Shown here in pieces: positions 1-59,594 of a DNA stretch of 64,000 bases (position 1 is the first letter of the stretch; the number at the start of each line of letters is the position of its first letter). Where the stretch lies: assembly GCA_903813345.2 (NCBI GenBank), contig CAIIXF020000006.1:38653936-38717935 (forward strand), written 5' to 3'. The notes beneath the pieces are model-generated. The model was not told where the DNA came from. It was given only the letters and a program-made list of their open reading frames with translations, and ran no database searches. Source of the DNA: Owenia fusiformis (Eukaryota > Annelida > Polychaeta > Sabellida > Oweniidae). The position numbers and the translations under genes are program-made.

Positions 1-2827
1 TATCATTACTCGTGACATTGCTACCCAATGTCGTCAACCTCCCCATCCACCTTTTAGTGACACCTACTTACCATTATTCATGTCTATATAGAGATTGAAT
101 TCATATTATTGATATATCATTACAGGACTGGGTGCCTATCATTACTCGTGACATTGCTACCCAACGTCGTCCACCTCCCCAACCACCTTTTAGTGACACC
201 TACTTACCATTATTCATGTCTATATAGAGATTGAATTCATATTATTGATATATCATTACAGGACTGGGTGCCTATCATTACTCGTGACATTGCTACCCAA
301 CGTCAACTTCCCCAACCACCTTTTAGTGACACCTACTTACCATTAATTATGTCTATATAGAGATTGAATTCATATTATTGATATATCATTACAGGACTGG
401 GTGCCTATCATTACTCGTGACATTGCTACCCAACGTCGTCCACCTCCCCAACCACCTTTTAGTGACACCTACTTACCATTATTCATGTCTATATAGAGAT
501 TGAATTCATATTATTGATATATCATTACAGGACTGGGTGCCTATCATTACTCGTGACATTGCTACCCAACGTCAACTTCCCCAACCACCTTTTAGCGACA
601 CCTACTTACCATTAATTATGTCTATATAGCGATTGAATTCATATTATTGATATATCATTACAGGACTGGGTGCCTATCATTACTCGTGACATTGCTACCC
701 AACGTCAACTTCCCCAACCACCTTTTAGTGACACTTACTTACCATTAATTATGTCTATATAGAGATTGAATTCATATTATTGATATATCATTACAGGACT
801 GAGTGCCTATCATTACTCTTGACATTGCTACCCAATGTCGTCAACCTCCCCAACCACCTTTTAGTGACACCTACTTACCATTAATTATGTCTATATAGAG
901 ATTGAATTCATATTATTGATATATCATTACAGGACTGGGTGCCTATCATTACTCGTGACATTGCTACCCAACGTCAACCTCCCCAACCACCTTTTAGTGA
1001 CACCTACTTACCATTAATTATGTCTATATAGAGATTGAATTCATATTATTGATATATCATTACAGGACTGGGTGCCTATCATTACACGTGACATTGCTAC
1101 CCAACGTCGTCCACCTCCCCAACCACCTTTTAGTGACACCTACTTACCATTATTCATGTCTATATAGAGATTAAATTCATATTATTGATTTATCATTACA
1201 GGACTGGGTGCCTATCATTACTCGTGACATTGCTACACAACATCGTCCACCTCCCCAACCACCTTTAATGACACCTACCTACCTACCATTATTCATGTCT
1301 ATATAGAGATTGAATTCATATTATTGATATATCATTACAGGACTGGGTGCCTATCATTACACGTGACATTGCTACCCAACGTTGTCAACCTCCCCAACCA
1401 CCTTTTAGCGACACCTACCTATCATTATTCATGTCTATATAGAGATTGAATTCATATTATTGATATATCATTACAGGACTGGGTGCCTATCATTACTCAT
1501 GACATTGCTACCCAACGTCGTCAACCTCCCCAACCACCTTTTAGTGACACCTACTTACCATTATTCATGTCTATATAGAGATTGAATTCATATTATTGAT
1601 ATATCATTACAGGACTGGGTGCCTATCATTACTTGTGACATTGCTACCCAACGTCGTCCACCTCCCCAATCACCTTTTAGTGACACCTACTTACCATTAA
1701 TTATGTCTATATAGAGATTGAATTCATATTATTGATATATCATTACAGGACTGGGTGCCTATCATTACTCGTGACATTGCTACCCAACGTTGTCAACCTC
1801 CCAAACCACCTTTTAGTGACACCTACCTACCATTATTCATGTCTATATAGAGATTGAATTCATATTATTGATATATCATTACAAGACTGGGTGCCTATCA
1901 TTACTCGTGACATTGCTACCCAACGTCAACTTCCCCAACCACCTTTTAGTGACACTTACTTACCATTAATTATGTCTTTATAGCGATTGAATTCATATTA
2001 TTGATATATCATTACAGGACTGGGAGCCTATCATTACTCGTGACATTGCTACCCAACGTCAACCTCCCCAACCACCTTTTAGTGACATCTACTTACCATT
2101 ATTCATGTCTTTATAGAGATTGAATTCATATTATTGATATATCATTACAGGACTGGGTGCCTATCATTACTCATGACATTGCTACCCAACGTCAACCTCC
2201 CCAACCACCTTTTAGTGACATCTACTTACCATTATTCATGTCTTTATAGAGATTGAATTCATATTATTGATATATCATTACAGGACTGGGTGCCTATCAT
2301 TACTCGTGACATTGCTACCCAACGTCGTCCACCTCCCCAACCACCTTTTAGTGACACCTACTTACCATTATTCATGTCTATATAGAGATTGAATTCATAT
2401 TATTGATATATCATTACAGGACTGGGTGCCTATCATTACTCGTGACATTGCTACCCAACGTCGTCCACCTCCCCAACCACCTTTTAGTGACACCTACTTA
2501 CCATTATTCATGTCTATATAGAGATTGAATTCATATTATTGATATATCATTACAGGACTGGGTGCCTATCATTACTCGTGACATTGCTACCCATCGTCGT
2601 CCACCTCCCCAACCACCTTTTAGTGACACCTACTTACCATTAATTATGTCTATATAGAGATTGAATTCATATTATTGATATATCATTACAGGACTGGGTG
2701 CCTATCATTACTCGTGACATTGCTACCCAACGTCGTCCACCTCCCCAACCACCTTTTAGTGACACCTACTTACCATTAATTATGTCTATATAGAGATTGA
2801 ATTCATATTATTGATATATCATTACAG
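1..2827 (+). repeat. ~135-bp tandem array of BAG6 pseudo-exons (about 21 units)
   Basis: About 21 head-to-tail units precede the real exon at 2828; the window opens inside the array. Units are 133 or 136 bp. Each has an intron-like 3' end finishing in ATCATTACAG, then about 78 bp nearly identical to the start of the real BAG6 exon (reading [15 protein letters not shown]...FSDTYL), then about 58 bp that leads to the next ATTACAG. After FSDTY the units diverge from the true exon and read LPLFMSI followed by TAG. The true exon instead reads [10 protein letters not shown] and ends in a good donor. I see no convincing 5' splice site inside the units, so they look like acceptors without donors. The ~133-bp class lacks one codon after the QR residues. 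Confidence 0.93.
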
Positions 2828-3695
2828 GACTGGGTGCCTATCATTACTCGTGACATTGCTACCCAACGTCGTCAACCTCCACAACAACCTTTTAGCGACA
2901 CCTACCTCAGCGGCATGCCAGCTAAGAGACGCAAGGTAAGAACACAAAAAATGGAGATTTTACTGGAGTTATACCAAGGATACGGGAGATTTTACGGGAA
3001 TTATACCAGAAAACAGGATATTTTACGGGAGTTATACCAATAAAATCTCCCATAGAAACTTGCATAACACTCTCAACATTGACATTGTACTCGACAACCC
3101 TTTAACTTTATTGACTTTTTTATTATTTCATTTTTACATTATATTTATTAAATAGTTAAATTATTTACTGCAATAATTGTACAGTGTTGCACAGTAACCA
3201 GATGTTAATATGAGGGCGTATCAGTGCATATATCATATCAAAATAATCAATATTTTATATACAATGTACTATCAAAAGGTTTTGTTTTCTTCAGACACAT
3301 TTAATATAAAGGATAATTCTTGAAATTGTTACACTGTAAAGGATATTTGAGCTTCTATTCAATATTTTCATTTTTCAATGTTGGAATTAAATGTGCCACT
3401 TTTTCAATTGTTAACATTCGGCTCTTCATTTCAGTTGATGGAGGAGAAAAAGTGCACAGAAGAGCTTGGAAAAGTCACAAATATTGTACCAGTTGCGATC
3501 GAGAATGCCGCCAGTGCAGTTGGGGCAACAGCTATATCATCCACATCAGATATGGTGAAAGACTGTGAAGAAAATACTGCCCTGAGTGACTCCTATCAGG
3601 AGCAGGTTCAAGCTACTATCAGACATAGACTTAGAACCGATCCTAATTATAGACCTGAGAAATTCCCAAATACAAAGAAATATTTTGATAAGTAA
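2828..3695 (+). CDS. BAG6: BAG6 (large proline-rich protein BAG6/Scythe), last two coding exons, partial
   Basis: BAG6 is a chaperone that holds hydrophobic client proteins and acts in tail-anchored protein targeting, quality control and apoptosis. Exon 2828-2935 (36 codons) follows ATTACAG and ends AAG|GTAAGA, phase 0. It reads [15 protein letters not shown], then [14 protein letters not shown], closely matching the known BAG6 segment with the basic NLS-like KRRK. Exon 3435-3695 follows CTCTTCATTTCAG in phase 0 and gives 86 residues plus TAA. It holds the BAG-like C-terminal region, with conserved-looking [20 protein letters not shown] and a PEKFPN motif near the end. The N-terminal ubiquitin-like domain and the proline-rich body lie upstream of the window. 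Only these two exons are visible; the family call rests on recognised sequence similarity. Confidence 0.88.
2949..3048 (+). repeat. short intronic minisatellite (~33 bp x 3)
   Basis: Inside the last BAG6 intron, directly after the donor, a motif like GGGAGATTTTACGGGAATTA followed by TACCA recurs about three times with variation. It is unrelated to the 135-bp array. Confidence 0.6.
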
Positions 3696-8427: not shown

Positions 8428-9690
8428 TCATACATATCCAAGTGAATTCATTTTTTGCCTCAAATAGTCAGTGTACGCGATTTCATAAGTTACCAGTTGT
8501 CTACATGTTGCATTATCCTTGCCTTCCTTTGATAGAAGGTAGGCATTCACCTTATGAGGCACCCAAGTTGGATTATTATACTGGTCTAACTTTTTGTTTG
8601 TTCCGTTGACCTCTTCCTCAATACAGTACCTTTGTATCTTGTCTCTCACTTGGTTGAATTGGGATAATTCTGTATTCATTCTCTCCCTCCCAAAATCATT
8701 GATGATATTCCAAAATGTTTTGTTGTAGTACTGATATAGAATTTCATCACCCATGTTGAGTTCTCTGATTTTCCGATATGCTTTTGGGTATGTCACATCT
8801 ATTCCAGTTGTTTTCTTAGCTTGGACATTTTTACTGATGTATACAATGTCATCGAATGACCAGTTCATTAGGTGTTTTAACAATATTAGACCTTCATTGA
8901 AGTATTCTGATATCATCACTAGGTCAAACATTCTGTCCATTTCCTGGATTTTCTTCTGAACCTTAGTAACATTTTTAGCATCCGTTGGTTCCATGCCCAG
9001 GTCATATAACTGTCTATTTGCACATTTTCCAGATTCAGTTAGTTTGTAGGTTGAACTTTCTATAGTTGAAAGAAATTTGTCAATGTTATGTGTCCCAAAG
9101 CAGTTCTTACTCCAATAGTCAAAATATTTGAATGCAGAAATAAAATTATATGTTGGTTTTCGTAACATTGTAATTGCCTTCCCTTCTGGTTTGAGCACAT
9201 CAAATACTTCATCACTGTGCCTGAGGTGGTGGCAGATGATATCGTATCTTGAATAGGGAGCCTTCAACGTCATAGTAAAGTTTTTCTTGAAAAGTTGAGG
9301 ATATTCTAATTGGTTACTACTTGCGTGTAATGCAAATGATAAATTTTTTATGTCTCCATATCTCTGCAAAATGCTCTGTAGTGTACTGCTGCCAGTTTTA
9401 TGGATTTTCAAAAAATATATACTGTTTAGTGGATGATATCCTCTGCTTTCATTGTTCAATGTTACATTATCATTTAATTGTTTATTCTCTGAAGGTGTTC
9501 CATGTATATCTTTCAATTGTGTAGAATTCTTTGAAAATGTTGATCCCCATATTTCCTCCAACTTGATGCTTGCCTTTTTATATTTTCCATTAGTTGAAAG
9601 CTTTGATATCAAGATGTACACTAGTCCTAAAGCTACTGCACAAAGAACCAGGCCAGTCCTTTTCTTTAAAAATGCTTTTTGGACTTTCAT
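8428..9690 (-). CDS. galactose-3-O-sulfotransferase-like protein, copy A (420 aa)
   Basis: A Gal3ST-family sulfotransferase, expected to move sulfate from PAPS to the 3-hydroxyl of galactose on glycolipids or glycoproteins in the Golgi. Residues 11-31 form a hydrophobic signal anchor after basic KVQKAFLKKR, giving type II topology. The PAPS 5'-phosphosulfate loop is LKIHKTGSS (94-102). The 3'-phosphate-binding motif reads MLRKPTYNFISAFKYF (about 175-190); K178 stands where copy B has the usual Asp (LRDP). Several N-X-S/T sites fit a lumenal domain. The coding region is uninterrupted; AATCTCAG upstream of the ATG could be a 3' splice site of a 5' UTR intron. Length is close to the family norm. 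The specific substrate cannot be told. Confidence 0.88.
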   Translation of the reverse strand: MKVQKAFLKKRTGLVLCAVALGLVYILISKLSTNGKYKKASIKLEEIWGSTFSKNSTQLKDIHGTPSENKQLNDNVTLNNESRGYHPLNSIYFLKIHKTGSSTLQSILQRYGDIKNLSFALHASSNQLEYPQLFKKNFTMTLKAPYSRYDIICHHLRHSDEVFDVLKPEGKAITMLRKPTYNFISAFKYFDYWSKNCFGTHNIDKFLSTIESSTYKLTESGKCANRQLYDLGMEPTDAKNVTKVQKKIQEMDRMFDLVMISEYFNEGLILLKHLMNWSFDDIVYISKNVQAKKTTGIDVTYPKAYRKIRELNMGDEILYQYYNKTFWNIINDFGRERMNTELSQFNQVRDKIQRYCIEEEVNGTNKKLDQYNNPTWVPHKVNAYLLSKEGKDNATCRQLVTYEIAYTDYLRQKMNSLGYV

Positions 9691-11740
9691 GATTTCGTTG
9701 CTGAGATTTGAATCAGTAGGCTATATATTCTTGGAAAATAATCTCATCCATTCTAATCTCTTTGAGCTTTATTTTTCATTGTCCTCTAAATCAGATTTGA
9801 AAATATACTTTTATATGCTACCAGTTTGAATATCCCATCTCAATGCATATTATGTACTGGATAAAGCATAAGAATAAGATTTAATAAGAAATAATACACC
9901 GAAGGCCGAAGGCCTGATGTTGTTATTGCTTATCAAATCGAATTCGAATGCTTTATCTTACTTAAATCACACAGACTCTTATCACAGGCAAAGGGTCTAT
10001 TATATTACAGTTAAAAGGTCTTTAATCCGGAAAAATGTGATTTCTTTTGTATTGACTATTCAAACTGTGAATTTTGCCAGGCTCACAATGACCCTGGCTC
10101 TTATTGGTTAAAATGTGTTGTTATATAGCCAAATAATTGTAACAACAAAAAGAGTTGGTTGCATTGACCTCATGAGTGTGAGTTGATGTAAGTGACTGAG
10201 TGGGCTATAATTAGTCTAGCTTCAGTGCACTACAGGTGACTGTCCAGTCCAGAACATTGAATTTGAATACAGCAGAATATTTGTAAGTAAGATAAGATCA
10301 ATGATGTAGATAGCAACAAAAATTGATAAATTTTTGTATATTGTTTTTAGGGAATGAAAACCATCAAAAACTGTCAATGGTCATTTATGTCTCACTTGTT
10401 TTTGATAGCTTGCCAAGTGTACATTCTTTAAAAACAATAGAAAAATAATGCACTTTCCTTTTGATAAAACCATACATTCTTAAAAATAAACCACAGCAAA
10501 TTCTATTGTGTTGCTACCCAAGTGGGATTTAATGATAAATAGCATTCGATATACTTAGACACGTCACTGCTTACTGAATGTAGTTTTGATCAAAATCCTT
10601 TGTTGGCTAACTAAAGGGGTCCTTTTAATACAATGTCGTGTAGTTTCGTTTTCAGTATATTTATCTGAGTAACTTTTATTTATTGAATTATTTTTTATTT
10701 CTTCAAAAGAATTAATGAAAAGTAGTATTTGAATGATTAAAATGTAATATTTTTAAATTTTGCACGGGGCCTTGAAGATTAATACTAGTGATCATCACAT
10801 ACTAATAGTATAATACTTATACATATATGGTTAAAAAATTACTTCGGTTTCATCAAAACGCGAAATGACATACCATGTAGCATAAACTGATTATATAATT
10901 CTCTATAAGAGCCTTCTGTATATAAATTTAATAAGTAAAATGTGTTTTGTTCCAAATTATTTTTTCTTGAATTGTAAACAGGCGACTTATTGTTACAAAA
11001 CAGAAAGTTGAATTGTGAATTTTAAATATAATATCTTGAAAATTACTACAGTGGGGATCATAAAGAATTGCAAAAGCTATGAAAATTACATGCTGTCGCA
11101 CATTTAATAAATTCTTACCTCAGTGTATTCAGTGCTCTATTTTCTCCGTCTTAGTAAGTCCAAATATAGTGGAATTTGTGTCCCTAATGACAAATAAGAA
11201 CTTCAAAAGTTGAATTGGATATTCACATGTTATGCCGACTCTTCAAATGTTGAGGTGATTTTGTCGCCCGATTGCGCCGGAACGGAGGATTGGCTCCCAG
11301 AATGCAACATGACACGTGTCAGCTTTCAAAATGCTGTTCTGCCATTTTGAAACCTGTCATGAGTAAATACGGTTAACTGATGTTGCATTCTGGGAGTCAA
11401 CCGTCCTTTGATAACAAACATGGCGATTCATGAAAAATTCATTCGATTTGGTAGGGATTTATCCATTATTTGCAGGTATGAAGCTTTGGATTCATTTATT
11501 GTGCTACTTTAGTGAACGGGAATTATTTTTCTACCGCTTGGGAGAGTTTGAGACACGGAACTTGGAAATAAGCTCATTGTGACAACTTGTGAACGTTGAG
11601 TTTTATTTTTGTCCCCCACTGTAAGCTTGTATTTGCTAAATGCAATGCAATAAAAATAGCTTGATAAATAGTGCAGTGAATCCCAAAATTTATTAAAAAA
11701 CATAGTAATAGATATTTACAGGAATATCATTATTTAATTG
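9691..11740. other. upstream region of Gal3ST-A, noncoding
   Basis: The first ~160 bp and 10530-11740 are shared with copy B (27730-27890 and 27890-28880). 9850-10530 is unique to A. I see no gene. An imperfect hairpin lies at 11287-11413. Confidence 0.6.
11287..11413. repeat. short inverted repeat, MITE-like
   Basis: CTCCCAGAATGCAACAT and its complement ATGTTGCATTCTGGGAG bracket about 75 bp. The arms extend imperfectly outward over GGA/TCC-rich sequence. It is absent from the equivalent place in copy B, which suggests insertion after duplication or loss in B. Confidence 0.55.
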
Positions 11741-11745: not shown

Positions 11746-13559
11746 AGATCTTATCGATTATGCAAAGACTGAAAACATTGATGGTATCTTAATTAGCTTA
11801 GATTTTAAAAAGGCTTTTGACAGTTTAAATTGTTTATTATGTACTCAGTATTAGAAAACATGAATTTTGGAAAAGGATTTATAAAATGGGTTAAAATCTT
11901 TTATACTCATCCATTTTTGAAAATAAAGAACAATGGTTTCTTTTCGAGAGAAGTTAAAATTGGCAGAGGTATAAGACAGGGCTGCCTCTTATCAGCGCTC
12001 CTGTTTATACTTTGTACAGAGATAATGGCAACAAATATAAAATATAATGATGAAATAAATGGAATAAGTATAGTTCAGCATGCAGACGACACTTCTATAA
12101 TTTTAAAAAATAGGGAATCAGTAAAAATTATGCTTGCAGAAATACAGAAATTTTCCAAACTGAGTGGTTTAGAACTAAATTTAGAAAAAACACAGGGAAT
12201 TTGGCTCGGAACATATCAGAATCGTGAAAAAATATATAAAAACATCGAGTTTCCAGATGAACCAATAAAAATAGTTGGTATATATGTGGGAAATGATTAT
12301 GAAAAGTGTCAGAAATATAACTGGAATCCTAAAATTTTGGAATTTGAAAAACTATTTGAATCGTGGAAATCTAGAAAACTATCACTCTTTGGAAAAGTAC
12401 AGATTATAAATTCATTTAAGCTATCTCAAAACTGATATTTTTATCTCCATCCTAGATGTACCTGGAACTATTATAAATCAACTAAACAGTATGATGTATA
12501 AATTCATATTGAAAATGATAAAGAGAAATGTTATAATTGGAAAGCTTGAAAAAGGAGGGTTAGGCTTAACTGATCTGCAAACAAAAATTTCAGCAATTAA
12601 AGGTATGTGGGTAAAGGGTTTAATTGGAGAAAATAGTGCTTGGCGACTTATCCCAGTATTTTACATTAAAAATGTGGTTTTAGCCTTAGCACTTTCCTGA
12701 AAACAAGATTTCTAAATATTGTTAAAATACCAATGCCAATTTTTTACCAAAATATCTTTACTTCTTTTAACAGATGTAAATTGATAGACAGAGATAAAAA
12801 TAGCATATTTTCTGGATTATTCTGGTTAAATGAAAGGTTTCAGAACAAAAAAGTGTCCTCTATTGCAAACACTGGATCAAAAGTGGTTTTGTTTATTTAA
12901 AAGATTTTATTGATATAAATGGTAGCGTTATAGATGAAAAACAATTTTAAATAAATTAATTGATAAAATGAATTGGATGACTGAATATCTCCGAATAAAA
13001 TGTTTTATTGTAAAATTATTAAAAGAACATGATGGGTAGTTAGCAAACACAAGCATTAGATACCATAACAAAATTCTTCTAAAAATGGCTCATGGACAGA
13101 AATAAATGATATCAGCACAAAGTCATTGTATAATATACTTTTAAAAGAAAAGGCTGAAAGCACAGTAATGGAAATTTATTGGAGTTCATTGTTTAAGACA
13201 CCAAATACAACACATTTTTATAGATCTATTAATATATGTCAAAATATATAAACATTGTTGACAAAAAATATGCTGAATTTAACTATAAATTGATTCATAA
13301 CATATTGGCATGTGGTTAACTTGTGAGTAAGTGGAATAATAAAATTTCAAAACTGTGTCTGTATTGCAATGAAACTCATGACAGCAAGCATATGAAATTT
13401 GAGTGTCGATTACTAGGAAATCTTTGGGTTAATGTTGGGAAGATTTTAAAATGTAATATCAAATGGAAAAATCTAATATTAGGGTTTTATATGAATGAAG
13501 GAAATATTCAAGAAGTTAGAAATATGTCACAACTGTGGTCAGCTATAGCATTTATGTAA
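11746..13559 (+). pseudogene. LINE reverse transcriptase, degenerate
   Basis: The RT domain begins within motif A (SLDFKKAFDS, 11798-11827). A frameshift follows near 11835, then a 201-residue open stretch to 12435 holds the GIRQGCLLSALLF motif and a catalytic HADD box (usually Y/F-ADD). A second piece at 12491-12700 contains GKLEKGGLGLTDL, a segment typical after the RT thumb. A last piece at 13323-13559 has CLYCN...HDSKHMKFEC, a C-terminal zinc-knuckle-like motif. Stops and shifts between pieces make it non-functional. Endonuclease and ORF1 are absent. Confidence 0.8.
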
Positions 13560-25736: not shown

Positions 25737-26478
25737 AAATAGTCTGTGTACGCGATTTCATAAGTTACCAGTTGATTACATGTTGCTTTTTGTGGTCCTT
25801 CATACATATCCAAGTGATTTCATTTTTTGCCTCAAATAGTCTATGTACGCGATTTCATAAGTTACCAGTTGATTACATGTTGCTTTTTGTGGTCTTTCAT
25901 ACATATCCAAGTGATTTCATTTTTTGCCTAAATAGTTTGTGTACTTGATTTCATAAGTAACCAGTTGATTACATGTTGCTTTTTGTGGTCCTACATACAT
26001 ATCCAAGTGATTTCATTTTTTTGCCTCAAATAGTTTGTGTACTTGATTTCATAAGTAACCAGTTGATTACATGTTGCTTTTTGTGGTCCTACATACATAT
26101 CCAAGTGATTTCATTTTTTGCCTCAAATAGTTTGTGTACTTGATTTCATAAGTAACCAGTTGATTACATGTTGCTTTTTGTGGTCCTTCATACATATCCA
26201 AGTGATTTCATTTTTTGCCTCAAATAGTTTGTGTACGTGATTTCATAAGCAACCAGTTGATTACATGTTGCTTTTTGTGGTCCTTCATACATATCCAAGT
26301 GATTTCATTTTTTGCCTCAAATAGTTTGTGTAGTTGATTTCTTAAGTAACCAGTTGATTACATGTTGCTTTTTGTGGTCCTTCATAGATATCCAAGTGAT
26401 TTCATTTTTTGCCTCAAATAGTTTGTGTACTTGATTTCATAAGTTACCAGTTGATTACACTTTGCTTTTTGTGGTCCT
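25737..26478 (-). repeat. 97-bp tandem array of the Gal3ST C-terminus and stop codon (8 units)
   Basis: Spacing of CAGTTGATTACATG is 96-98 bp through eight units. Read on the minus strand, each unit encodes QLVTYEIAYTDYLRQKMKSL then GYV and TGA (some units varied), i.e. the last ~25 codons of Gal3ST, followed by about 18 bp of 3' sequence. The units lie downstream of the real stop (26481-26479), so they would fall in the 3' UTR. Copy A has only one partial unit (8388-8427). Confidence 0.9.
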
Positions 26479-27729
26479 TCATACATATCCAAGTGAATTC
26501 ATTTTTTGCCTCAAATAGTCAGTGTACGCGATTTCATAAGTTACCAGTTGTCTACATGTTGCATTATCCTTGCCTTCCTTTGATAGAAGGTAGGCATTCA
26601 CCTTATGAGGCACCCAAGTTGGTTTATTATACTGGTCTAACTTTTTGTTTGTTCCGTTGACCTCTTCCCCAATACAGTACCTTTGTATTTTGTCTCTTAC
26701 TTGGTTGAATTTTGATAATTCTGTATTCATTCTCTCCCTCCCAAAATTATTGATGATATTCCAAAATGTTTTGTTGTAGTACTGATATAGAATTTCATCA
26801 CCCATGTTGAGTTCTCTGATTTTCCGATATGCTTTTGGGTATGTCACATCTATTCCAGTTGTTTTATTAGCTTGGACATTTTTACTGAAATAAACAATGT
26901 CATCGAATGACCAGTTCATTAGGTGTTTTAACAATATTAGACCTTCATTGAAGTATTCTGATATCATCACTAGGTCAAACGTTCTGTCCATTTCCTGAAT
27001 TTTCTTCTGAACCTTAATAACATTTTTAGCATCCGTTGGTTCCATGCCCAGGTCATATAACTGTCTATTTGCACATTTCTTTGATTTAGTTAGTTTGTAG
27101 GTTGAACTTTCTATAGTTGAAAGAAATGTGTCAATGTTTTGTGTTCGGAAGCATTTCTTACTCCAATAGTCAATATATTTGAATGCAGAAATAAAATTAT
27201 ATGTTGGATCTCGTAAAATTGTAATTGCCTTCCCTTCTGGTTTGAGCACATCAAATACTTCATCACTGTGCCTAAGGTGGTGGCAGATGATATCGTATCT
27301 TGAATAGGGAGCCTTCAACTTCATAGGAAAGTTTTTCTTGAAAAGTTGAGGATAGTGTAATTGGTTACTTTTTTCGTCTAATGCAAATGATAAATTTTTT
27401 ATGTCTCCATATCTCATCAAAATGCTCTGTAGTGTACTGCTTCCAGTTTTATGAATTTTCAAAAAATATATACTGTTTAGTGGATGATGTCCTCTGCTTT
27501 CATCATTCAATGTAACATTATCTTTCATCAAATTCTCCGAAGATGTTGTTCCATGTATATCTTTAAATTGTGTAGAATTCTTTGAAAATGTTGATCCCCA
27601 TATTTCCTCCAACTTGATGCTAGCCTTTATATATTTTCCATTAGATACCAAGATATACATTAGTGCTACAACTACCACACAAAGAACCAGGCCAATCATT
27701 TTCTTTAAAAATGCTTTTTGGACTTTCAT
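26479..27729 (-). CDS. galactose-3-O-sulfotransferase-like protein, copy B (416 aa)
   Basis: Paralogue of the gene at 8428-9690, same predicted Golgi type II sulfotransferase. The anchor is at residues 12-30 (IGLVLCVVVVALMYILVS), slightly shorter than in A. KIHKTGSS (91-98) is the PAPS 5' loop. ILRDPTYNFISAFKYI (about 171-186) is the 3'-phosphate site with the usual Asp retained. The C-terminal half is almost identical to A; differences concentrate in the N-terminal stem. The start matches A, with the same sequence around the ATG and a possible upstream 3' splice site (AATCTCAG). The gene is uninterrupted and looks functional. The gene-end array follows the stop. Confidence 0.88.
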   Translation of the reverse strand: MKVQKAFLKKMIGLVLCVVVVALMYILVSNGKYIKASIKLEEIWGSTFSKNSTQFKDIHGTTSSENLMKDNVTLNDESRGHHPLNSIYFLKIHKTGSSTLQSILMRYGDIKNLSFALDEKSNQLHYPQLFKKNFPMKLKAPYSRYDIICHHLRHSDEVFDVLKPEGKAITILRDPTYNFISAFKYIDYWSKKCFRTQNIDTFLSTIESSTYKLTKSKKCANRQLYDLGMEPTDAKNVIKVQKKIQEMDRTFDLVMISEYFNEGLILLKHLMNWSFDDIVYFSKNVQANKTTGIDVTYPKAYRKIRELNMGDEILYQYYNKTFWNIINNFGRERMNTELSKFNQVRDKIQRYCIGEEVNGTNKKLDQYNKPTWVPHKVNAYLLSKEGKDNATCRQLVTYEIAYTDYLRQKMNSLGYV

Positions 27730-28880
27730 GATTTCGTTGCTGAGATTTGAATCAGTAGGCTATATATTCTTGGAAAATAATCTCATCTATTCTAATCTCT
27801 TTGAGCTTTATTTTTCATTGTCCTCTAAATCAGATTTGTAGATATACTTTTATATGCTACCAGTTTGAATATTCCATCTCAATGCATATTATTGATAAAT
27901 AGCATTAGATAAACTTAGACACGTCACCGCTTACTGAATGTAATTTTTATCAATATCCTTTGTTGGCAAACTTAAGGGGTTCTTTTTATACAATGTTGTG
28001 TAGTTTAGTTTTCAGTATATTTATCTGAGTAACTTTAATTTATTTAATCATTTCTTATTTCTTCAAAACAATTAATGAAAAGTAGTATTTGAATGATTAA
28101 AATATAATATTTTTAAACTTTGCATAGGGCCTTGAAGATTAATACTAGTGATTACCACATTAATACTTATATGGTTGAAAAAATTACTTCAATAATTTTT
28201 AAGCAAATGCTTCAAAACGCGAAATGACATACCATGTAGCATAAACTGATTATATTATTTTCTCTAAACTCTTCTGTTTATAAATGTAATACTAGTAAGT
28301 AAAATGTCTTTTGTTCCAAATTATTTTTTCTTGAATTTTAAATCTATTTTTATGTCTCTACCAGAACTGGCGACAAATTTTTAAGTCTCCATCTTTTTGT
28401 GGATGGTGTAAGGCATCTGAAATGTGGCATCTGTAACGTGGCGTCTGTAACAAATTATGGGGTCTTTGACAAATTGCAGGTGTTGCCTTGTTGATGGCTT
28501 GTACTTTGTTTTAATTTGGTCTTGAGTCATATGCAAGATTTGTTTCTACAAATAATGTCAGTAGATTCCTAAAATACAGAAAGTTGAATTGTGAATTTTA
28601 ATATATACTATTTCTTGAATAGCAGCATTGATAGCAAAATCTTTAAAATGACTAAGCTTGTATTTGCTAAATGCAACTTTCGGCTACTAGATTAACCTAC
28701 TATTTTATGGGTAACTTATTTAAAATGAATAGTACCTTCCACTATTCCATTCATGTTTAAATGAGTTGGTCATAAAATAGTAGGATAATACGGTTGCTGA
28801 CAGATGAAAGAGAAAATAAAAATAGCTTGATAAATAGTGCAGTGAATCTCAAAATTTATAAAATATATATTAACAGGAAT
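27730..28880. other. upstream region of Gal3ST-B, noncoding
   Basis: 27890-28320 matches 10530-10980 and 28820-28880 matches 11650-11740. 28340-28560 and 28690-28800 are B-specific. I see no gene. Confidence 0.55.
28690..28792. repeat. small MITE-like inverted repeat
   Basis: CCTACTATTTTATG and its complement CATAAAATAGTAGG bracket about 70 bp, which themselves contain ATGAATAGT and ACTATTCCAT arms. Copy A lacks it at about 11643, consistent with an insertion in B. Confidence 0.6.
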
Positions 28881-33700: not shown

Positions 33701-36402
33701 GGGAACTATTTTCCCCAAATTTTTGGGATTTTTCTTCATCTGCCCGCCGCAGTGTCTATACCGAGACACTGCATGGGAGTTCGTGGGAGTCTTACATAGA
33801 TGTGTAATGCCATTGACATAAACTGTAATATGCTTTTGTTCTTGCACATGTGCAGAGTATCCCAAGGTCGACCGAACTTTTGTATGGGAGTCTCACATAG
33901 ATGTGTAATGCAATTGACATAAACTGTAACATGCCTTTGTTCTTGTACATGTACAGAGTATCCGAAGGTTGAACTAACTTTTGTATGGGAGTCTTACATA
34001 GAAGTGTAATGCCATTGACATAAACTGTGATATGGCTTTGTTCTTGTACATGTACAGAGTATCCGAAGGTTGAACTAACTTTTGTATGGGAGTCTTACAT
34101 AGAAGTGTAATGCCATTGACATAAACTGTGATATGGCTTTGTTCTTGTACATGTACAGATTATCCGAAGGTTGAACTAACTTTTGTATGGGAGTCTTACA
34201 TAGAAGTGTAATGCCATTGACATAAACTGTAATATGCCTTTGTTCTTGTACATGTACAGAGTATCCGAAGGTTGAACTAACTTTTGTATGGGAGTCTTAC
34301 ATAGAAGTGTAATGCCATTGACATAAACTGTGATATGGCTTTGTTCTTGTACATATACAGAGTATCCCAGGGTCGACCTAACTTTTGTATGGAAGTCTTA
34401 CATAGATGTGTAGTGCCATTGACATAAACTGTGATATGCCATTGTTCTTGCACATGTACAGAGTATCCTAAGGTTGAACTAAATTTTTTATGAGAGTCTC
34501 ACATGAATGTGAGAAACAATGTCCAATGCAGGCTCCCCATCAATGAAGTTCCATTATCAAAATCAAGGACCATAACATCAAGGGACATTTCAGTCATACA
34601 GAAGTCAGAACAATATATGTTGAAGAATAAATATAAATTGATAAACCAAAACTCATAAACCATGTAAACTAGCATTAACTATCTCGAGGAAAAAAGTTAT
34701 GTAGCTATGAAATGTTAAATATGCCTCCTTTCTTCCAAATATACAGGGCATCCCAAGGATATCCCAATTTTTAATGCAAATTATAGCGGAAATGCTAATA
34801 TCTAATGCATTGACTTAGACTTTAGTTGTAAAACTATGAAGTGTTATATATGGATTCATTCTTGTAAATATACAGGGGATGTCAAGGTCGGCCTAACTTG
34901 GACATATTTCATGTCATAGTTATATGACCTCTGAGTATACCTTGAGTCTATATCGGTCGATCCATGAGTTAATAGCATCATTCCCAATTTTGTTCAACTC
35001 CATTAGATCTCTATAAGACTTCAGACCAAAATGACGTAGCCAGGGAAACAGTTCCAATTCTTCACCACTCCCCTGTGCCATATGCTTTACTCTCTGTAGC
35101 ATTTTTTCCACAGCACTGAAATCGCCAGCTGTCAGTTTGACATGTTCTCCTAGCATCTAAAAGTTACAGGACCAATGTAAATAGTGATGGGTTTTGGATA
35201 TACTCACTCACCTCTTATTCTTTCAATATATATGTAGCATTGAAATCTCACTGATGTTGCATTTTTATAATGAGATTTTCAGGATTTTTCAAGTATTTTG
35301 CTTATATTTGAATTCTATGTGCACTACTGCACTGGTATAGAAGGACTATGATATTCAAAGATATTTTGATTTTTTGAAGAATTGGGCTAAATCCCAAATG
35401 CCACAATGTAAAAATTAAAATTCTACAAATATTCACCTATTTATTGTCGAAACTACTGTATAATAATAATAAACTCTTCCAACTTTAGAAAAAATATAAT
35501 TAAATTCAATGGCTTACAAAACTGATTATAGCAAAATAATTTTTTGGATGTTCTATGGCCTACTGTATTATATCACCGAGACTTTGCAAAAAATATTGAC
35601 CAGTTGTCAGAAAAATGAAGCAAGATTATGAACAGGCTTAGTCAGTGATGGCAGTCCCTACTTACCAATTTCAATATTAACTTAACAACAACGTGGTCTA
35701 CAAAATAAATTATCAGTTAAATGAAACAAGTTCATGAAAATCATGACGGTCCCTAGTCTCCCTACTTACCAATTTTAATATTAACTTAACAACAACGTGG
35801 TCTACAAAATAAATTATCAGTTAAATGAAGCAAGTTCATGAAAAGGCATGACGGTCCCTACTTACCAATTTCAATATAAACTTAACAACAACGTGGTCTA
35901 CATGCAAATTTGGGTTGAAGGCCTCGCCATTGTGTGACAGAAACTCCGTCAGGCACTCCATGATCGGTTTGTTAAATAAATCTCTGGCTTGATTAGATGC
36001 GCCATATGGTCGTAGTCCTCGAGAGGAAAGTTTCAGCATTATTTTAAACGATTTTGTAAAATCTTGAAAGGCAATTCCGTTATTACCACCAGGTAAAGCA
36101 TAAGTGAAACGCCAGGATTTTGGTCGTCCTGCAAAATCATCTGATTTTGTCATCATAATCGATTCATAGTCGTTACAAACAACGACTTCCTCTCTAAAAA
36201 GTTGAAGTTTGAAGATACTTCCGAATTCCTTTGACCATTCTTGAATTTGGACATATGGTACATTTTTACTGAGTTGCAGTGCATTGCCAACTATGGGATG
36301 GCCTTTTGGGCCAGGCATGTCTATCTTTCTCCATCTCAATACAAATCCGAGAAGTAGTACTATTCCTACAACCAAAGATCCCGTGACCAGAATCATAGCC
36401 AT
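30796..36402 (-). CDS. cytochrome P450, CYP2-clan-like, six exons, 505 aa
   Basis: A microsomal monooxygenase by family. Exons on the minus strand are 36402-35866, 35156-34941, 33104-32969, 32092-31827, 31482-31361 and 31036-30796; all joins use AG/GT and phases agree, giving 505 residues. Residues 4-24 are a membrane anchor, followed by a proline-rich hinge (PGPKGHPIVGN, 30-40). ExxR is E353-R356 (EAVR), the PERF-like motif is NPDRF, and the heme loop FGVGKRTCLG holds Cys437. Two oddities: the C-helix WxxxR reads FKIML (119-123), and the I-helix motif is GGTVT (296-300), lacking the usual Asp/Glu before Thr. An upstream in-frame ATG (36435) would add 11 residues; the paralogue supports 36402. 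Substrate is unknown. Confidence 0.85.
31204..31327. mobile_element. 124-bp MITE in the last P450-1 intron region
   Basis: The ends ATCGGGTGTCTCAAA and its near-complement (TTTGGGACACCCGAT) are followed by matched GAGACACTTTTTGACAAGTA arms, forming a hairpin. It lies between exons 5 and 6. A fragment of one arm recurs at about 50383-50425. Confidence 0.75.
32120..32373. repeat. imperfect direct repeat with GAAGATGGC motifs
   Basis: A segment with CTTCAAGGAATTTG and GGCCATCTTCGTGA occurs twice, about 120 bp apart, in intron 3 of P450-1. Related sequence is near 43555-43605 beside the P450 pseudogene. Confidence 0.6.
32374..32818 (-). repeat. 63-bp intronic minisatellite (7 units)
   Basis: GAGATGATCCGATTTAATAT recurs every 63 bp in intron 3 of P450-1. 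Because 63 is a multiple of three, the minus strand stays open across the array, reading ISNYIKSDHLIGLYKKKES repeatedly for 154 residues. It is intronic and lacks any sign of being a gene. Later units are near-identical, implying recent expansion. Confidence 0.85.
33290..34500. repeat. 101-bp intronic minisatellite (about 8 units, interrupted)
   Basis: TGCCATTGACATAAACTGT, TACATGTACAGAGTATCC and ACTAACTTTTGTATGGGAGT recur every ~101 bp in intron 2 of P450-1. The first unit is separated from the rest by a MITE at 33397-33783. Diverged single copies of part of the unit occur near 34720-34900 and, in the paralogue, near 44260-44310, which suggests the ancestral intron carried one unit. Confidence 0.85.
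33397..33783. mobile_element. 387-bp MITE with self-palindromic ends and 9-bp TSD
   Basis: The ends are CGAACTCCCGTGCAGTG and, at the right, the complement of CGAACTCCCATGCAGTG. The first 40 bp are a perfect palindrome centred on GATATATC, and the right end folds on its own (AGTGTCT/AGACACT). TGGGAGTCT flanks both sides (33388-33396 and 33784-33792), and intact units of the 101-bp array show the empty site. A 9-bp duplication is of the Mutator-like size. No coding capacity. Confidence 0.85.
35645..35900 (-). repeat. three tandem copies of the P450-1 exon 1 end and its splice donor
   Basis: The complement of CTTACCAATTT, i.e. exon-1 end plus gtaag, occurs at 35861 (the real donor), 35764 and 35661. 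Each carries the last ~36 nt of exon 1 (AACTTAACAACAACGTGGTC on the plus strand) and ~60 nt of spacer. The two downstream copies are decoy donors: reading past the real donor gives VSRDRHAFS then a stop. Confidence 0.88.
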
Positions 36403-43081: not shown

Positions 43082-45883
43082 TTATAGTGGTTCAACTTTC
43101 ATGTAAAATGGCGGCGGTTGATAACTGATAGCAATCGTGAAGGTCTTCAGGTCACACGATGGAATATTTTTCTCGTCAGCAGGAATCAGTTTTATTCTGT
43201 GCAGCATTTTCGAGAAAAATAAGAAAATCCTGTCGATTCCTATCTTTTCACCCAAGCACGATCTTTTTCCAACACCAAAGGGTAAAAATCTACAATTTAA
43301 AATGTGGAACATTAGGTGCATTTTCAGCAGTTTAGACATGCTGTTCAAAGATGAACTATAAACCAGTTGGAATGTAATTTTCCTTTTCATGCTGAAGAGG
43401 TAACTTGGTAAAGACCGAAAGAAATTGATCAGGACTACTGGATCTGTGCTTATTTCTCAACATTGGATATGTAAGAGTCGGAATTAATATAACATTAGCA
43501 GGATCAACGACTCAATGTGTGATTTGATATTTCAATTAAATTTAATTGATTCCTTTAAGTATCTTCGGCCATCCTCGTGATTTAAACATCTTCGGTTGCG
43601 GTGCAAAATATTCAGTTTTTAAGGGTATTCACAACAAAATTTGAAAAAATTGGCATCAAAATTCCAGGGTTCAACTTGAAATTTTCACATATGGAAAAGC
43701 AGATTAAAGCCCACATCTAATTAGGTTTTGGACATGTTAGAGAAATAACATGGCGGCCATTTTGCGTCTTGTATATTATGGATATGTTATCACCAAACGG
43801 AACTTCATAACATCCCAATGGAGTTCTCCAAAGTGAGAAAGGGTATATTTACCTGCTACGACGGTTTCAAATATTGTGCGTTTGATGTTATTCATATCTT
43901 TTTGTCCTTCATCATATGCTCTCAGTAATATGGCCAAAACTGTTCCTTGGCTTTCCAAGTCTTCATCAGGAAGATTTAACTCCTCCATCTAAAACAAATA
44001 GCATTTAAATAATATTCCTAAATTAAATCTACCCAATTAGTTTGCTGCTTCCACTAGAAATACATATATTTCAATCCCATAGCCCAAAACCGAAGAATAC
44101 CAAATAAATTTCGTACTAATGAACCCCACTTATATGAGACAATAATATTAATTAAATAGCGAGGAATTTGTAAGAATAAAGTCCAACACAGATATGGTGT
44201 TGACATAAACTAGCCCGGAGAATAAAGGTTTGCAATACATTAGTAACTTTGATGTAAATATGTCTTTGTTCTTGCTCAAATACAGGGTATCCCAAGGTTG
44301 GCCTATGTTGCCAGAACTTGAGCATAAATCATTGTAACCTCTACTAGTGTACCTTAAATCTATATCGAGCGATCCATGACTTAATAGTATCATTCCCAAT
44401 TTTGTTCAACTCCATTAGATCTCTGTAAGACTTCAGACCAAAATGACGTAGCCATGGGAACAGTTCCAATTCTTCGCCACTCCCTTGTGCCATGTGCTCC
44501 ATTCTCTGTAGCATTTTTTCACAGCACTGAAATCCTCCGCTGTTAGTTCGACATGTTCTCCTAATATCTGAAAGTGGAAGTGTCAATGTTAACACTACTA
44601 AACAGCGAGGCGTTTTCTGAAGGTTGAATATCTTCACCTTTAATTCTCCCAACCTTGCAATATACATGTGCTTTCTTTTTTAAAATCCCGTACAGTCAAA
44701 ACAGAAATGTTTGTGACTACTTTGAATTTAAAAAATAAGCAATCAAATGACCATATTGAAACAGTTTATGTAAAAATAGAAACATTTATATTTATCCTAA
44801 CTTTTGTATCTTCTTTTTGTTTTGTAGTTTAGCTATCATATCTGTGTCCTCTTATATTTTGATACTTCTCTGCCATGTTATTTTCGGAAATATTAACATG
44901 GCTGAAACTTAGATAAGTTACAAAAGGCCACAGCTTTGCTGCACATTATACATTACTACCTGAAATATACAAAAGTTAGGATAAATATAAATGTTTCTAT
45001 TTTTACATAAACTGTTTCAATATGGTAATTTCATTGCTTATTTATATAAGTAGTCAAAGTAGTCACAAACATTTCTGTTTTGACTATAGATGTCCCGAAT
45101 TTATAACGATATATTTGGAGGTTTTCATATGCATCTAGCAAGAGATTTTTCTATTTTATGACTATTTGAATTCTATATATATACAACTAGAAGAGAACCG
45201 TAATTTTCACAGATAGTTTATGTTTGAAAATAGTTATGACAAAATAAAAATTTAGATATTTTTATGACCTACCTAATATTGTAACAGAGATTTTACACAA
45301 ACATATATACTCTTAAGCCTCTTATCAGTAATCCCTACTTACTTACCAAATTCACAATAAACTTCGTAACACAGTGGTCTACGTGCACATTTGGGTTGAA
45401 GGCCTCACCATTGTGTGACAGAAATTCTGCCAGGCACTCCTCATTTGGTTTGCTAAAAATATCTGTTGTATGATTAGATGCTGCGTAGGGTCGGATTCCT
45501 TGAGAAGCAAGTTTTCGCATTATTTTGAACGATTTTGTGAAATCTTGAAAGGCAATGCCATTATCGCCACCAGGTGTCGCATAAGTGAAACGCCAGGATT
45601 TTGGTCGTCCTGCAAAATCATCTGATTTTGTGATCATAATCGATTCATAGTCGTTACAAACAACGACTTCCTCTCTAAAAAGTTGAAGTTTGAATATACT
45701 TCCAAATTCCTTTGACCATTCTTGGATTTGGACATATGGTACATTTTTGCTGAGTTGCAGTGCATTGCCAACTATGGGATGGCCTTTTGGGCCAGGCGTG
45801 TCTAATTTCCTCCATTTTAATACAAATGCGAGAAGTAGTACTATTCCTACAACCAAGGATCCAGTGACTAGAATCACAGCCAT
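43082..45883 (-). pseudogene. cytochrome P450 copy 2, disrupted
   Basis: Tandem paralogue of the gene at 30796-36402. Exon 1 (45883-45347) is intact, with ATG preceded by an in-frame stop and residues PGPKGHPIVGN. Exon 2 (44567-44353) is 215 instead of 216 bp: one base is missing in the GCTGTG|AAAAAATG region, shifting the frame. Exon 3 (43988-43853) is intact. Exon 4 survives only as ~70 bp (about 43538-43465, CAAATCACACATTGAGTCG), exon 5 is not found, and exon 6 (43289-43082) keeps FGVGKRSCLGEK. It therefore lacks the ExxR helix and cannot make a normal P450. Its exon 1 retains Arg at the WxxxR position (FKIMR), which copy 1 has lost. Confidence 0.85.
44693..45086. mobile_element. 394-bp MITE in intron 1 of the P450 pseudogene, TA flanks
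   Basis: AGTCAAAACAGAAATGTTTG and its complement begin ~120-bp arms that include AACTTTTGTAT and ATAAATATAAATGTTTC. TA flanks at 44691-44692 and 45087-45088 suggest a Tc1/mariner-type insertion. No coding capacity. Confidence 0.8.
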
Positions 45884-48298
45884 CCTGTTGCAAAATAGTG
45901 TTTAAAACATGAATAAAATTGTTCACACGTCAAGGTCATGTATCCCTCGTTTGCAGTATTAAAGGAATTGTGCAATATTGTAACATTTCTATTTTCTTAG
46001 AAAGAAGAGCAATCATTGTACTGTATGTAAAACTGTTCACACGTTGGGCAGATATTTCTCTTTTAATAGATTAAAGAAATGTGGGACAATGTTGTTTAAG
46101 CGTATGTTAATAATTACTACTATGGACTAAAAAGACGTCAAGAAGAATTGTTGTATAATAGAGTCGTTCAATATTGTAACATTGCTTTACTACAAAGTAA
46201 CATCCTCCGATCACAGGGCTTCAAAATTCAGAATATCTTCTTAATTTTTACCCCTTTGGTAACGTTTTGAAAACCATTTGCTGTACCGAACATCCCAGGC
46301 CACCTTTATGGTTTGCTTCATAGAAAAAGGTTGACCCAAGAAAATATACACATTTATTATGAGTAAAATTTGCTTTTCGAGTATGACAAGCTTTACTCAT
46401 CTGTGCCTAGGTTCGTAACATGGAATCTGTTTAACCAGACGAGAACTATAAATTAGCTAGCTACGCCAAGAAACCTTTTAATCATACTTTTAGTATTCCG
46501 TTTTTATATTTCGATGCAAGTGTAGGCTATACTGACTTAAACATTAAACTAAACGGGCAAACAGCAATTTTATGATGTTAAAACATTTTTGCATATATGC
46601 ATCCATGAATATAGCTGTATTCTTTTCTTTTTCCTATCAATCATAAATAATTTATACTCTTATGTCTAGTCAGAAAAAACAATTAATTCAATGTAATTTT
46701 CAATTATTTTCATTTATTTTCATGTAACTCGGGAGAAACTAAAAATGTTTTCATTTGGCTGAATAACAGCTGTATGCTCTCCACACAGAATAGTGATATA
46801 CACTTGAATTGGTATTGGAAAGTGATCTATATATATCAGGGATACTCCGATACATCTCAAAACATTTTGCTAATTGTGGTTTTTAAAAATTCTGATTGTT
46901 TCACAATTTAAACAGTCAAAATAGGTCCATAAGTAAAAAAGAAATAAAAGAATGGAAAGGCCCTGCGTTGAGCGTTAATGTCCTGTTCATTACAATTGGA
47001 AATGTATCGATCTTACCAAGATACCATCATACGCATATCTTCTTGTAGAGACTTCCGATAATGGGGATTTTGTATTAATCCCCATGACGATATGTTGATA
47101 TCCCCATGTTATGTCAATAGGGTATCTCCCCATGTTAACTCAAACCACCCATGTTGAAATCCTAAAAGGACCACGGAAGTTATCGCAACAGAGTTTAGAT
47201 AGTCATATGTTGGACTGTGGCTATTTTTGAGGATTTAAAAAGGTGCATATGTTAGGCCATTGCATTATCTAAAGGAAAAGTACTCACACAGATGATCAAA
47301 ATAATTCGGACATCGAGACGGGGAAGGCGCAAACACCCACAAACATTTTTCCAAAAATACATTCGTGATTTTAATCCCCTTCCATTCGAGTTAACCTCGT
47401 ATATGTTTCAAGCAGGTATTAAAGATATCAATTCTGGTTGACCAAAATTTACTGAAAACAATGGATCGCATGAGTTTTCCCTATTAGAAAATAACGATTG
47501 TTCTCCACTTTATCCCACATGAAACATATTTTCCTTTTAAAGGGTGACGCATATCGTTTAGCAAATCGAACGCTCGTTTCTGGTGTTGCTCACCGTTTAG
47601 TATAAAAGGCCCGATCCCGGAATAATACTCAAGGGTTCACAGGTTCGAGGTCGTTGTGTCAACACCTCTAACTGTTATATAGCATAAGTATATTATAGAT
47701 CGTCACACATTTATAAAAGGGTGATTTTTATTTTGACAAATCAATTCCACATTTATGGGTGAAGTTTCAGGATCTTCTATTTGTGTATAATAAGGAAAAA
47801 TTGGCATCTAAATTCCCCCATAACGTAATAGCACACAGCTTAGCATATGAAATATCCTACAAATGAAACAAAGCAAGACAAACCGGTTTCTAATACAAGG
47901 ATTTATATTGGCTGTTGTACATGTATTCTTTGAACGCAATCACTCTTTGGATAACGTTTTCAAAATCATTATAAACGGATTACTTTATCTCAAAGACAAT
48001 TTCAATAAACTGGGTTTTACAGAACTCCCCTTATTTCTTAAAAATGGACTGATCCAGTTGATTCGCCTGGAGCCGCCATATTGTTTTTACACGGGATGCT
48101 AATCGGAACCCTTTAAGCGGTTAACTCTGTCTGCAAATGCAACATGTTGATGCATAAAACAATGCAATAGAAACAATAAACACATTGTGAATTATGTGTA
48201 TATTTACATACAGAAAATTACCGACTGTTGTATAAACAAAAAAGATTATTTTAGATATGCATGCTAATTCCAATTTAGCTATCCAATGTTAGAAACTA
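45884..48298. other. intergenic stretch
   Basis: 46380-46880 matches the P450-1 upstream region (38320-38720). The rest is AT-rich with no gene recognised. A short block at 48160-48225 resembles 63835-63890. Confidence 0.5.
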
Positions 48299-58100: not shown

Positions 58101-59594
58101 CAATATTCTACAAACTGCTTGATTAATCAATTCTATGTCTGGTAGAATACTAGAAATAAATATAAAATGTATTTTACGTTCAGAAATATGGAATTAAACC
58201 CACGTCCTCCATTTGCAACTTAGCTGTACCCTGTTTCCCTTTTAAACGTGGTCACGTGGTAGGGTAGTGTGTTTATATGAGAAGGCTACATGAATTTGTA
58301 TATGGTCGAGTGATACGTACAGGTTCAGTTTCGATTATATATGCAAAGCTTAACCTCTCCAATAAAGCCCGTTTTCGAGAACTTAATGATAACTCGTTTG
58401 ATGTGATGGTAGGGTTATTTGGGTGATGCTTTATTGGTGTCACCCTGCACCTTTTATACGTATCAAATTTCATATCTTTAAGCATGTAACAATGTTTTTT
58501 ATTTAAATAAAGTGACACCAAAACATCGCACCATGCAGATCTTTGACTTTTGCAGACATTTGCACTGCCAGCGTGTGGGGAACATCGTTTTGACATTTTC
58601 CAAATTCTATATTCTCTTATTAATCAAAAAATATTTAATTTTGAACAAAACCAATTGAAATCACAGATAGAATGCAGTAAAAAAAGTTTAGAAATGTATG
58701 AAAATGTCCTGAGAAGGTTACCTTGTGTAACCCATTGTAGAGGCAAAAGTCCGTGTTGCAATCAAAATGAAATGTACTTTATTTCTAGACGCCACGGTAC
58801 CTTCAAACTTTATATTCATTTTTGTGGTGGAGTACCGGAAAATGATCCAGTCCAACAATCCTCTAATAACCTCATCATTAGGGATCGAAATGCTTTCTCG
58901 AGTTCTCGAATCCAGTTCTTTCAGACCCGAATATCATATTTTTCCAGTTCCACCTCATATGGACTGCAGTGGCAACAGAAGCTTTACAGGTGTTAGAACA
59001 ATCCAACCACATGGACAAAATGCATTCAGAGCGTACTGTAGTGGCGGTTGTGTTTACATAGCCAGGCGCTTTGATGGGAGTGTTGACTTCTACAGGGACT
59101 GGGTAGAGTATCAGTCAGGATTTGGTAACCCAGAAGGAGAATATTTCATTGGCCTGGACAACCTTCATGGTTTAGTAACTCAAGAGAAATATAAACTAAG
59201 AGTTGAACTTACCATGTGGCCCCCACAGAGTGAAACACGTCATGCTGAATACTTTGTATTTGATGTGAGTGATGAAAGTGATAACTATAGATTGACAATT
59301 GGGGGTTATAGTGGAAATGCAGGGGACTCACTTAAAGTGCAAGATGGTATGGCATTTAGTACAAAGGATCGTGATCGTGATCCAGCCGGCATCAATTGTG
59401 CTGTGACCCACAAAGGGGCTTGGTGGTATAATAAATGCCACGATTCACATCTGTTTGGTCTTTATAATACTAATGCTAATTGCCCTGCTTGGGGTGATTG
59501 TGTGACATGGAGGCACTGGCCAAACACAATTGGCTCACCTGACAATCCTTACTATTCATTTAAAAAGGTTGACATGAAAGTTTGTCCAAAGTAA
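55157..59594 (+). CDS. secreted fibrinogen-related protein (coiled coil + FReD), 323 aa, three coding exons
   Basis: Likely a ficolin/FREP-like lectin for extracellular recognition. Exon 55157-55229 encodes the signal peptide (MKIMKYGATCAIVLVLDMVI, then GANT), donor CAG|GTGGGT, phase 1. Exon 55564-55815 follows TATTTTTAG and holds Cys-rich VFGETIGSCPKREQMLCKKR, then a charged heptad coiled coil (about residues 45-105), donor A|GTAAGG, phase 1. Exon 58948-59594 follows TATTTTTCCAG and encodes the whole fibrinogen C-domain: MDCSGNRS, DGSVDFYRDW, GEYFIGLDNLH, DNYRLTIGGYSGNAGDSL, the calcium-site-like DRDRDPAG and WWYNKCHDSHLFGLY, ending MKVCPK. Phases agree. The reading frame upstream of 58948 is intron, not exon. 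The ligand is unknown. The last intron holds two transposons. Confidence 0.86.
56055..56345 (-). mobile_element. relict copy of the dimeric-MITE family
   Basis: On the minus strand GAACGAGTTGAACTGTCTG and GTTTAAACTGGT match the interior of the MITE at 13576-14390 (about 13640-13915). Both TIRs are lost or too diverged to see. It sits in the last intron of the fibrinogen-domain gene. Confidence 0.7.
56772..58271. mobile_element. TIR element, CACACTACC family member 2, TSD TTTAT
   Basis: The ends are CACACTACCCTACC and its complement, and TTTAT flanks both sides (56767-56771 and 58272-58276). The right subterminal region (CTCCATTTGCAACTTAGCTG, CAAACTGCTTGATTAATC) matches the left end of the 24516-25711 element in inverted orientation. 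It is about 300 bp longer than that member. No transposase seen. Inside, GACTATCCGCTAT is duplicated near 57370-57400. Confidence 0.85.

Follow-up and report, generated by a model that had tools for sequence, protein, structure and literature searches.

Tandem copies of splice sites at exon edges of BAG6 in the annelid Owenia fusiformis: probably a tolerated mutational by-product, with counterparts in unrelated genes

How a single splice acceptor is used when dozens of near copies of it stand in a row, and whether such copies serve the gene that carries them, are the questions raised by a stretch of 64,000 nucleotides from the annelid Owenia fusiformis (contig CAIIXF020000006.1, hereafter C6, positions 38653936-38717935 in a 498.26-Mb genome assembly), called here the window. 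It opens with a tandem array that repeats the intron end, the AG acceptor and the start of the penultimate coding exon of BAG6, named exon H in a model of nine exons (A to I). Arrays that multiply a splice site in this way are termed 'mirages', a known, little-studied kind of repeat to which the BAG6 array belongs, and that array is a real and large mirage; the copies other than the real site are referred to below as 'decoys'. Very probably it arose by passive tandem duplication across the splice site, the last acceptor being spliced as normal; the array would then be a by-product of mutation that is tolerated, and probably not a switch in BAG6.

In the window, Tandem Repeats Finder (TRF) delimits the array to positions 1-2905, with a period of 136 bp, 21.5 copies and 95% matches. 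An earlier note on this DNA had counted about 21 copies, which is right for the window but not for the whole array, since the same 136-bp unit continues head-to-tail for 17.8 copies in the upstream stretch L001, as far as L001:5578 (C6:38651513), where a partial copy opens mid-exon. Altogether 39 copies of the acceptor with the exon start are present, namely 38 decoys and the real exon H at window position 2828; the window itself begins inside a decoy unit whose exon copy starts 11 bases further upstream. A search of the animal's own genome with window positions 1-400 gave at least 18 matches, all those listed lying within C6:38651521-38656840.

The decoy units measure 132-139 bp; in each, some 78 nt from the start of the exon lead into some 58 nt from the end of the intron, closing in AG. 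Homology to the real exon stops near nucleotide 78, in other words after 26 codons, in agreement with the earlier note, which had also rightly held that the array is no anonymous satellite, its units being copies of the 3′ splice site and start of a coding exon. The AG is kept in 37 of the 38 decoys, and in 31 all 23 nt around the acceptor (20 intron and 3 exon bases) equal those of the real one, so that, judged from the letters, local acceptor signals would barely separate the decoys from the real site. Mean pairwise identity among units is 94.2% (minimum 84%), the last unit being unlike the others, and a lag test for higher-order structure is almost flat, with a slight rise at lag 15.

An in-frame stop lies inside the unit in all 38 decoys, at 3 to 120 nt from the acceptor and mostly at 96-102 nt. 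Where the earlier note had seen a TAG after LPLFMSI in every unit, the stop is indeed general, but its context, variants included (L(P/S)L(F/I)MS(I/L)), is found in only 33: units 3 and 24 have early stops, units 6 and 15 are frameshifted, and in unit 13 the TAG is mutated and the stop comes 7 codons later. These stops are not evidence of design, because they are expected when an AT-rich intron is read. Substitutions at codon positions 1, 2 and 3 number 19, 38 and 24 when counted by copies and 9, 10 and 11 when counted as distinct variants, gaps being excluded (29, 50 and 34 with gaps included). An excess at third positions, the mark of a constrained frame, is absent among these decoy substitutions, and the reading frames of the decoys are free of any sign of coding constraint.

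Exon H is the sole copy in the array that directly adjoins its donor (GTAAGA at 2936), and KRRK is encoded in the part of it that the decoys do not contain. Given the in-frame stop in every decoy, the proposal that splicing to a unit would cut the protein before KRRK and the BAG-similar domain is upheld. The identity of the gene is supported by matches of its C-terminus to human BAG6 chains in the PDB (7ru9_D, E = 2.3e-27; 6au8_C, 3.7e-12; 4x86_B, 2.5e-9), while the Pfam family Bag6_BAGS is borderline, with 23.4 bits for a 315-aa query and 22.5 bits for a 572-aa query at a cut-off of 22.9. The upstream exons, whose absence the earlier note would have counted against its own reading, are present: the nine exons, with edges set by hand from the sequence, join into one frame that is open to a single final stop, in a model that does not reach the N-terminal exons, which were not sought. 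The intron between exons G and H (C6:38648325-38656762) measures 8.4 kb, of which the array takes about 5.25 kb. No second BAG6 gene or processed copy appears among the matches listed for a 272-residue query against the same genome, all 40 of which fall in the BAG6 locus.

What distinguishes the last acceptor is its distance from a good donor. By an approximate donor-scoring matrix, none of the 207 GTs in the exon-H array attains the 3.37 of the weakest of five scored BAG6 donors: the best reaches 2.99, and the exon's own donor scores 10.32. The real acceptor lies 108 nt from the exon-H donor, while the next acceptors lie 244, 380 and 516 nt away. As for possible ends of shortened transcripts, the exon-H array holds no AATAAA; one ATTAAA and one TATAAA are present. 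Since no comparable donor exists within the array, the exon opened by a decoy, if one were used, would most likely extend as far as the real donor and measure at least 244 nt. By the usual rule of nonsense-mediated decay, an mRNA whose stop lies far upstream of an exon junction is degraded; the stop of a decoy exon would lie more than 100 nt before the junction, so that decay is predicted by this rule, and not a stable truncated protein.

These features suggest the following history. A segment lying across the boundary, from the end of the intron through the AG and 26 codons into exon H, would have been duplicated in tandem, and the resulting minisatellite would then have been enlarged and homogenized by slippage or unequal exchange. 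Under exon definition, a well-established principle, the last acceptor would be paired with the good donor 108 nt further on, because it alone has such a donor at a normal exon distance, and the array would remain within the 8.4-kb intron. A decoy used now and then would yield an mRNA containing a stop, destined for decay.

Two further arrays lie in the same gene, both upstream of exon H. The larger one multiplies a donor: exon E ends at C6:38640819 and is followed at C6:38640820-38647256 (L002:3827-9000 and L001:1-1333), upstream of the window, by an array with a 60-bp unit made of the last 57 nt of the exon plus GTA. It comprises 109 donors, beginning with that of the real exon end; all 109 read GTAAGA, at spacings of 60 bp (84 cases), 58 bp (19) and 59 bp (5). 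The second donor, if used, would add 20 codons in frame, while the third and those after it would take in a stop. The 10-mer AAGATATTGT is common to exon E and the start of its intron and is a plausible seed for slippage at this exon. The other, which is short and of the acceptor type, stands ahead of exon A (C6:38636807-38637070, at the end of L003 and the start of L002); it holds a single decoy acceptor, preceded by a partial copy that opens mid-exon, as does the first copy of the large exon-H array. Arrays in BAG6 thus touch 3 of the 17 splice edges of exons A-I (the acceptors of A and H and the donor of E).

The same anatomy is found outside BAG6. Two samples of exons were hand-picked from domain matches: 60 from 150 kinase-domain matches, with 1,200-bp flanks, and 36 from 144 kinesin matches, with 900-bp flanks. 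The picks followed score order roughly and were non-random; partial-domain matches were preferred, and exons holding a whole domain were skipped, as were some rows with several stops, any that would have overlapped a stretch already chosen and an array on contig C2. Exon edges in these samples are the ends of hidden Markov model (HMM) matches, not annotated exons, and arrays were recognized by self-comparison and inspection. On this basis, 7 of the 96 exons carry an array at an edge (3 of 60 for kinases, 4 of 36 for kinesins), which corresponds to 8 of 192 edges (4 of 120 and 4 of 72), five being acceptors and three donors. Several kinesin picks share a gene, and the four kinesin matches with arrays represent three genes, because L093 and L097 lie about 4 kb apart in one of them. 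Purely intronic arrays (L046 and L094) and a dispersed repeat (L042) were not counted, nor was a 93-bp acceptor array in L070, which lies at an exon adjoining the sampled one.

The skipped C2 array, left out of the 96 exons for having been noticed through its repeats, lies at the start of an exon of a kinesin that we take from its peptide to be KIF4-like (C2:23266359-23269174, within L065, C2:23265900-23270100, minus strand). It holds 17 decoys and the real exon with a period of 159, all 17 decoys contain an in-frame TAA, and no second copy appears among the matches listed in a search of the same genome, all 17 falling at one place. A kinase pair in L004 (C10:2256896 and 2257074) was rejected as a mirage, consisting of two diverged whole exons 178 bp apart; these are possibly mutually exclusive exons. 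In the window, a P450 gene bears a small donor mirage (Table 1), its exon being an open reading frame (ORF) that runs from about 36441 down to the first donor at about 35866 on the minus strand. The exon of a neighbouring P450 paralogue, which aligns with it over 606 positions at 87% identity, has no array and can be regarded from its sequence as an 'empty site' for this mirage. The recurrence of one anatomy at unrelated exons, at donors as well as acceptors, makes the BAG6 array look like the product of a mutational process.

Whether that process could be aimed at splice sites, for instance by a mechanism linked to RNA or R-loops that would make the arrays a targeted feature, can be judged by comparing edges with flanks. 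Three arrays at 17 BAG6 edges, a presumably PAK-like exon with arrays on both edges and the presence of two of the four kinesin matches (L093 and L097) in one gene would be in keeping with targeting. However, arrays are not enriched at exon edges over flanking DNA in either the kinase or the kinesin sample: edges touched by tandem repeats amount to 3.3% and 5.6%, respectively, against 5.5% and 13.7% of flanking bases within local tandem repeats, although the two measures differ in kind, an edge being scored as 'touched' when a local repeat is present on each side of it within 80 nt. Exon bases are covered to only 1.6% and 3.0%. With edges not favoured and exons spared, the distribution is as expected under random tandem duplication filtered by selection, and targeting is judged very improbable.

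The other explanations concern what the BAG6 array does, or whether it exists as assembled. The earlier note had proposed that the decoys act as alternative acceptors, yielding a truncated and possibly differently localized BAG6. In favour of such an isoform switch, 31 of the 38 decoys have an acceptor identical to the real one and every decoy leads to an in-frame stop ahead of KRRK and the BAG-similar domain. Yet the array offers neither an AATAAA nor a donor of like strength, so that a decoy exon has no evident end other than the real donor, which predicts decay, and the like design in unrelated genes lowered the weight of a switch special to BAG6. Moreover, the mirages of amphioxus are reported to be silent (PMC3087553, PMC3902484). 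The switch is considered very unlikely. It is quite unlikely that the array works as a splicing decoy that slows intron removal ('intron detention'), its copy number tuning BAG6 output in the manner of human OGT. The length of the intron and of its array would suit this idea, for decoy exons that are recognized but rarely spliced favour retention in OGT and other genes, notably of longer introns (PMC12017769). Against it, the OGT decoy has predicted 3′ and 5′ splice sites while the BAG6 units lack a good 5′ site, the pattern recurs in genes unrelated to BAG6, and tandem repeats show no preference for edges over flanks. Finally, a false expansion of a short repeat during assembly is extremely improbable: assemblers do err in long, near-identical arrays, some units are identical (10 identical pairs) and the exact copy number is uncertain, but the many distinct variants, the spread of identities (mean 94%, minimum 84%) and of unit lengths (132-139 bp), the distinct last unit and the same anatomy at other loci with different units all argue for a real array.

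Passive duplication with splicing at the last acceptor has itself to be weighed against several observations. Across the loci analysed, a score of at least 3.37 is reached by only 14% of 14,286 GTs; with about six GTs per unit, a unit would often lack a donor-like GT by chance, and its absence in BAG6 is not unusual. A GT above 3.37 does occur in three of seven other acceptor arrays, namely L070 (6.64, across its own AG-GT), L097 (3.99) and L096 (3.92). Use of the last acceptor is something we infer from sequence. The 3 of 17 edges in BAG6 exceed the sampled rate of 8 of 192. In addition, two acceptor arrays (exons H and A) begin mid-exon, and such left ends are not explained by a single simple slip, so that one has to suppose either that a deletion followed or that the event was more complex.

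A broader interpretation, rather unlikely in our estimation, would be that splice sites which are locally alike are tolerated by this genome in arrays of up to about 100, at several percent of its exon edges, that the spliceosome picks among them by a positional rule (the nearest partner), and that the arrays form a standing supply of new isoforms and introns. If so, the second donor of exon E would add exactly 20 in-frame codons to BAG6, with later donors meeting a stop, and BAG6 output would fall in step with the length of the acceptor array.

The wider result, more interesting than the BAG6 mirage by itself, is the occurrence of arrays at about 4% of the sampled exon edges, reaching about 100 copies. 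Choice among identical splice sites has usually been studied with a few engineered copies; here a natural series of 2 to 109 copies, of acceptors and of donors, would let the rule of choice (first, last or nearest partner) be read from RNA. A genome rich in mirages also allows mirage-based intron gain to be tested, and on the practical side gene prediction is at risk of error at exons that bear them.

Table 1. Positions of the BAG6 and P450 features in the window (numbered from its first letter) and the sampled loci with arrays at exon edges
Feature	Position	Strand	Description
Window part of the acceptor mirage	1..2827	+	20 decoy acceptors (126, 262, ... 2692); units of 133-139 bp; continues upstream to C6:38651513
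Real penultimate BAG6 exon H	2828..2935	+	108 nt, phase 0, DWVPII...SGMPAKRRK; last array copy
Last BAG6 coding exon I	3435..3695	+	Holds the stop codon; BAG-similar domain
P450 donor mirage	35654..35902	-	Three copies of exon end + GTAAGT; TRF period 104, 2.5 copies; PF00067
Paralogous P450 exon	45338..45901	-	Single donor, no array
Sampled array loci			L017 acceptor + donor; L032, L093 donor; L049, L090, L096, L097 acceptor

Further repeats occur elsewhere in the window. Near the P450 exons, at 33784-34504, stands an array of seven 101-bp units that hold GTAAGA or GTGAGA on the minus strand. Much the same 97-bp tandem unit occurs at 25737-26562 and at L003:6449-6639, about 46 kb apart, and resembles a dispersed repeat of satellite type. 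Two galactose-3-O-sulfotransferase ORFs (PF06990) are present at 8431-9720 and 26482-27759 (minus strand), and local duplication is suggested by the resemblance between 49-bp arrays at 5079 and 15873 and by 21-bp repeats at 4147, 14949 and 29088. Other coding features comprise reverse-transcriptase fragments (PF00078) at 11821-12432 and 39450-40746, probably retrotransposon remains, and an ORF with a fibrinogen C-terminal domain (PF00147) at 58731-59591. In the genome at large, 3 matches to Eryth_link_C and 34 innexin exons are in keeping with an annelid, and a search for COX1 gave no match.

Repeats at exon boundaries are also known in human genes. Exon 13 of CBS carries a variable number of tandem repeats (VNTR) that is reportedly linked to reduced CBS activity, to go by the title of a cited study. 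This 31-bp VNTR, c.1444_1467+7(16_21), is polymorphic with 16-21 copies (PMC2630376). By its name it runs from the exon end 7 bases into the intron, which makes it a donor-type counterpart of the exon-E array; it differs in being a single human locus with a 31-bp unit at a donor only. Variable tandem repeats at human exon-intron boundaries, which may form novel introns, are likewise minisatellites placed at the boundary, but their units average 30 bp in four copies, they belong to genes in young segmental duplications, and arrays of copied splice sites are not evident in the available text (PMC2812944). The decoy exon of OGT resembles the BAG6 units in bringing exon-like, rarely spliced signals into an intron; OGT decoys are single elements with both splice sites and with functional evidence, whereas BAG6 units have no good 5′ site (PMC12017769). 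The pairing of both splice sites is not seen in the BAG6 array, with a best GT of 2.99 against 10.32 for the exon-H donor by the approximate matrix.

The closest relatives are the mirages of amphioxus. Under that name, no report outside cephalochordates was found in a literature search that lacked most subscription journals and covered most papers only by their listing; in two nematode papers 'mirage' is the name of a transposon, and a Caenorhabditis elegans study of minisatellites and splicing deals, in its available part, with intronic repeats. Amphioxus mirages are described in Adh3 and the globins BflGb6 and BflGb9 (PMC3087553) and in TnC and PGBD5 (PMC3902484). Regular splicing is reported or argued there to be undisturbed (PMC3087553, PMC3902484), and mirages are proposed as a route of intron gain (PMC3087553). 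Like the BAG6 arrays, they are minisatellite-like repeats across an exon-intron boundary, many of which keep the AG or GT, and they occur at both 3′ and 5′ boundaries, as do the arrays described here (acceptors at exons A and H, donors at exon E and in P450). Their units measure 150-160 bp in BflGb6 and 60 and 108 bp in PGBD5. What sets the present arrays apart is the host, an annelid rather than a cephalochordate, and the copy number: BAG6 alone carries 109 donors at exon E and 38 decoy acceptors at exon H, against 3-6 units in BflGb6.

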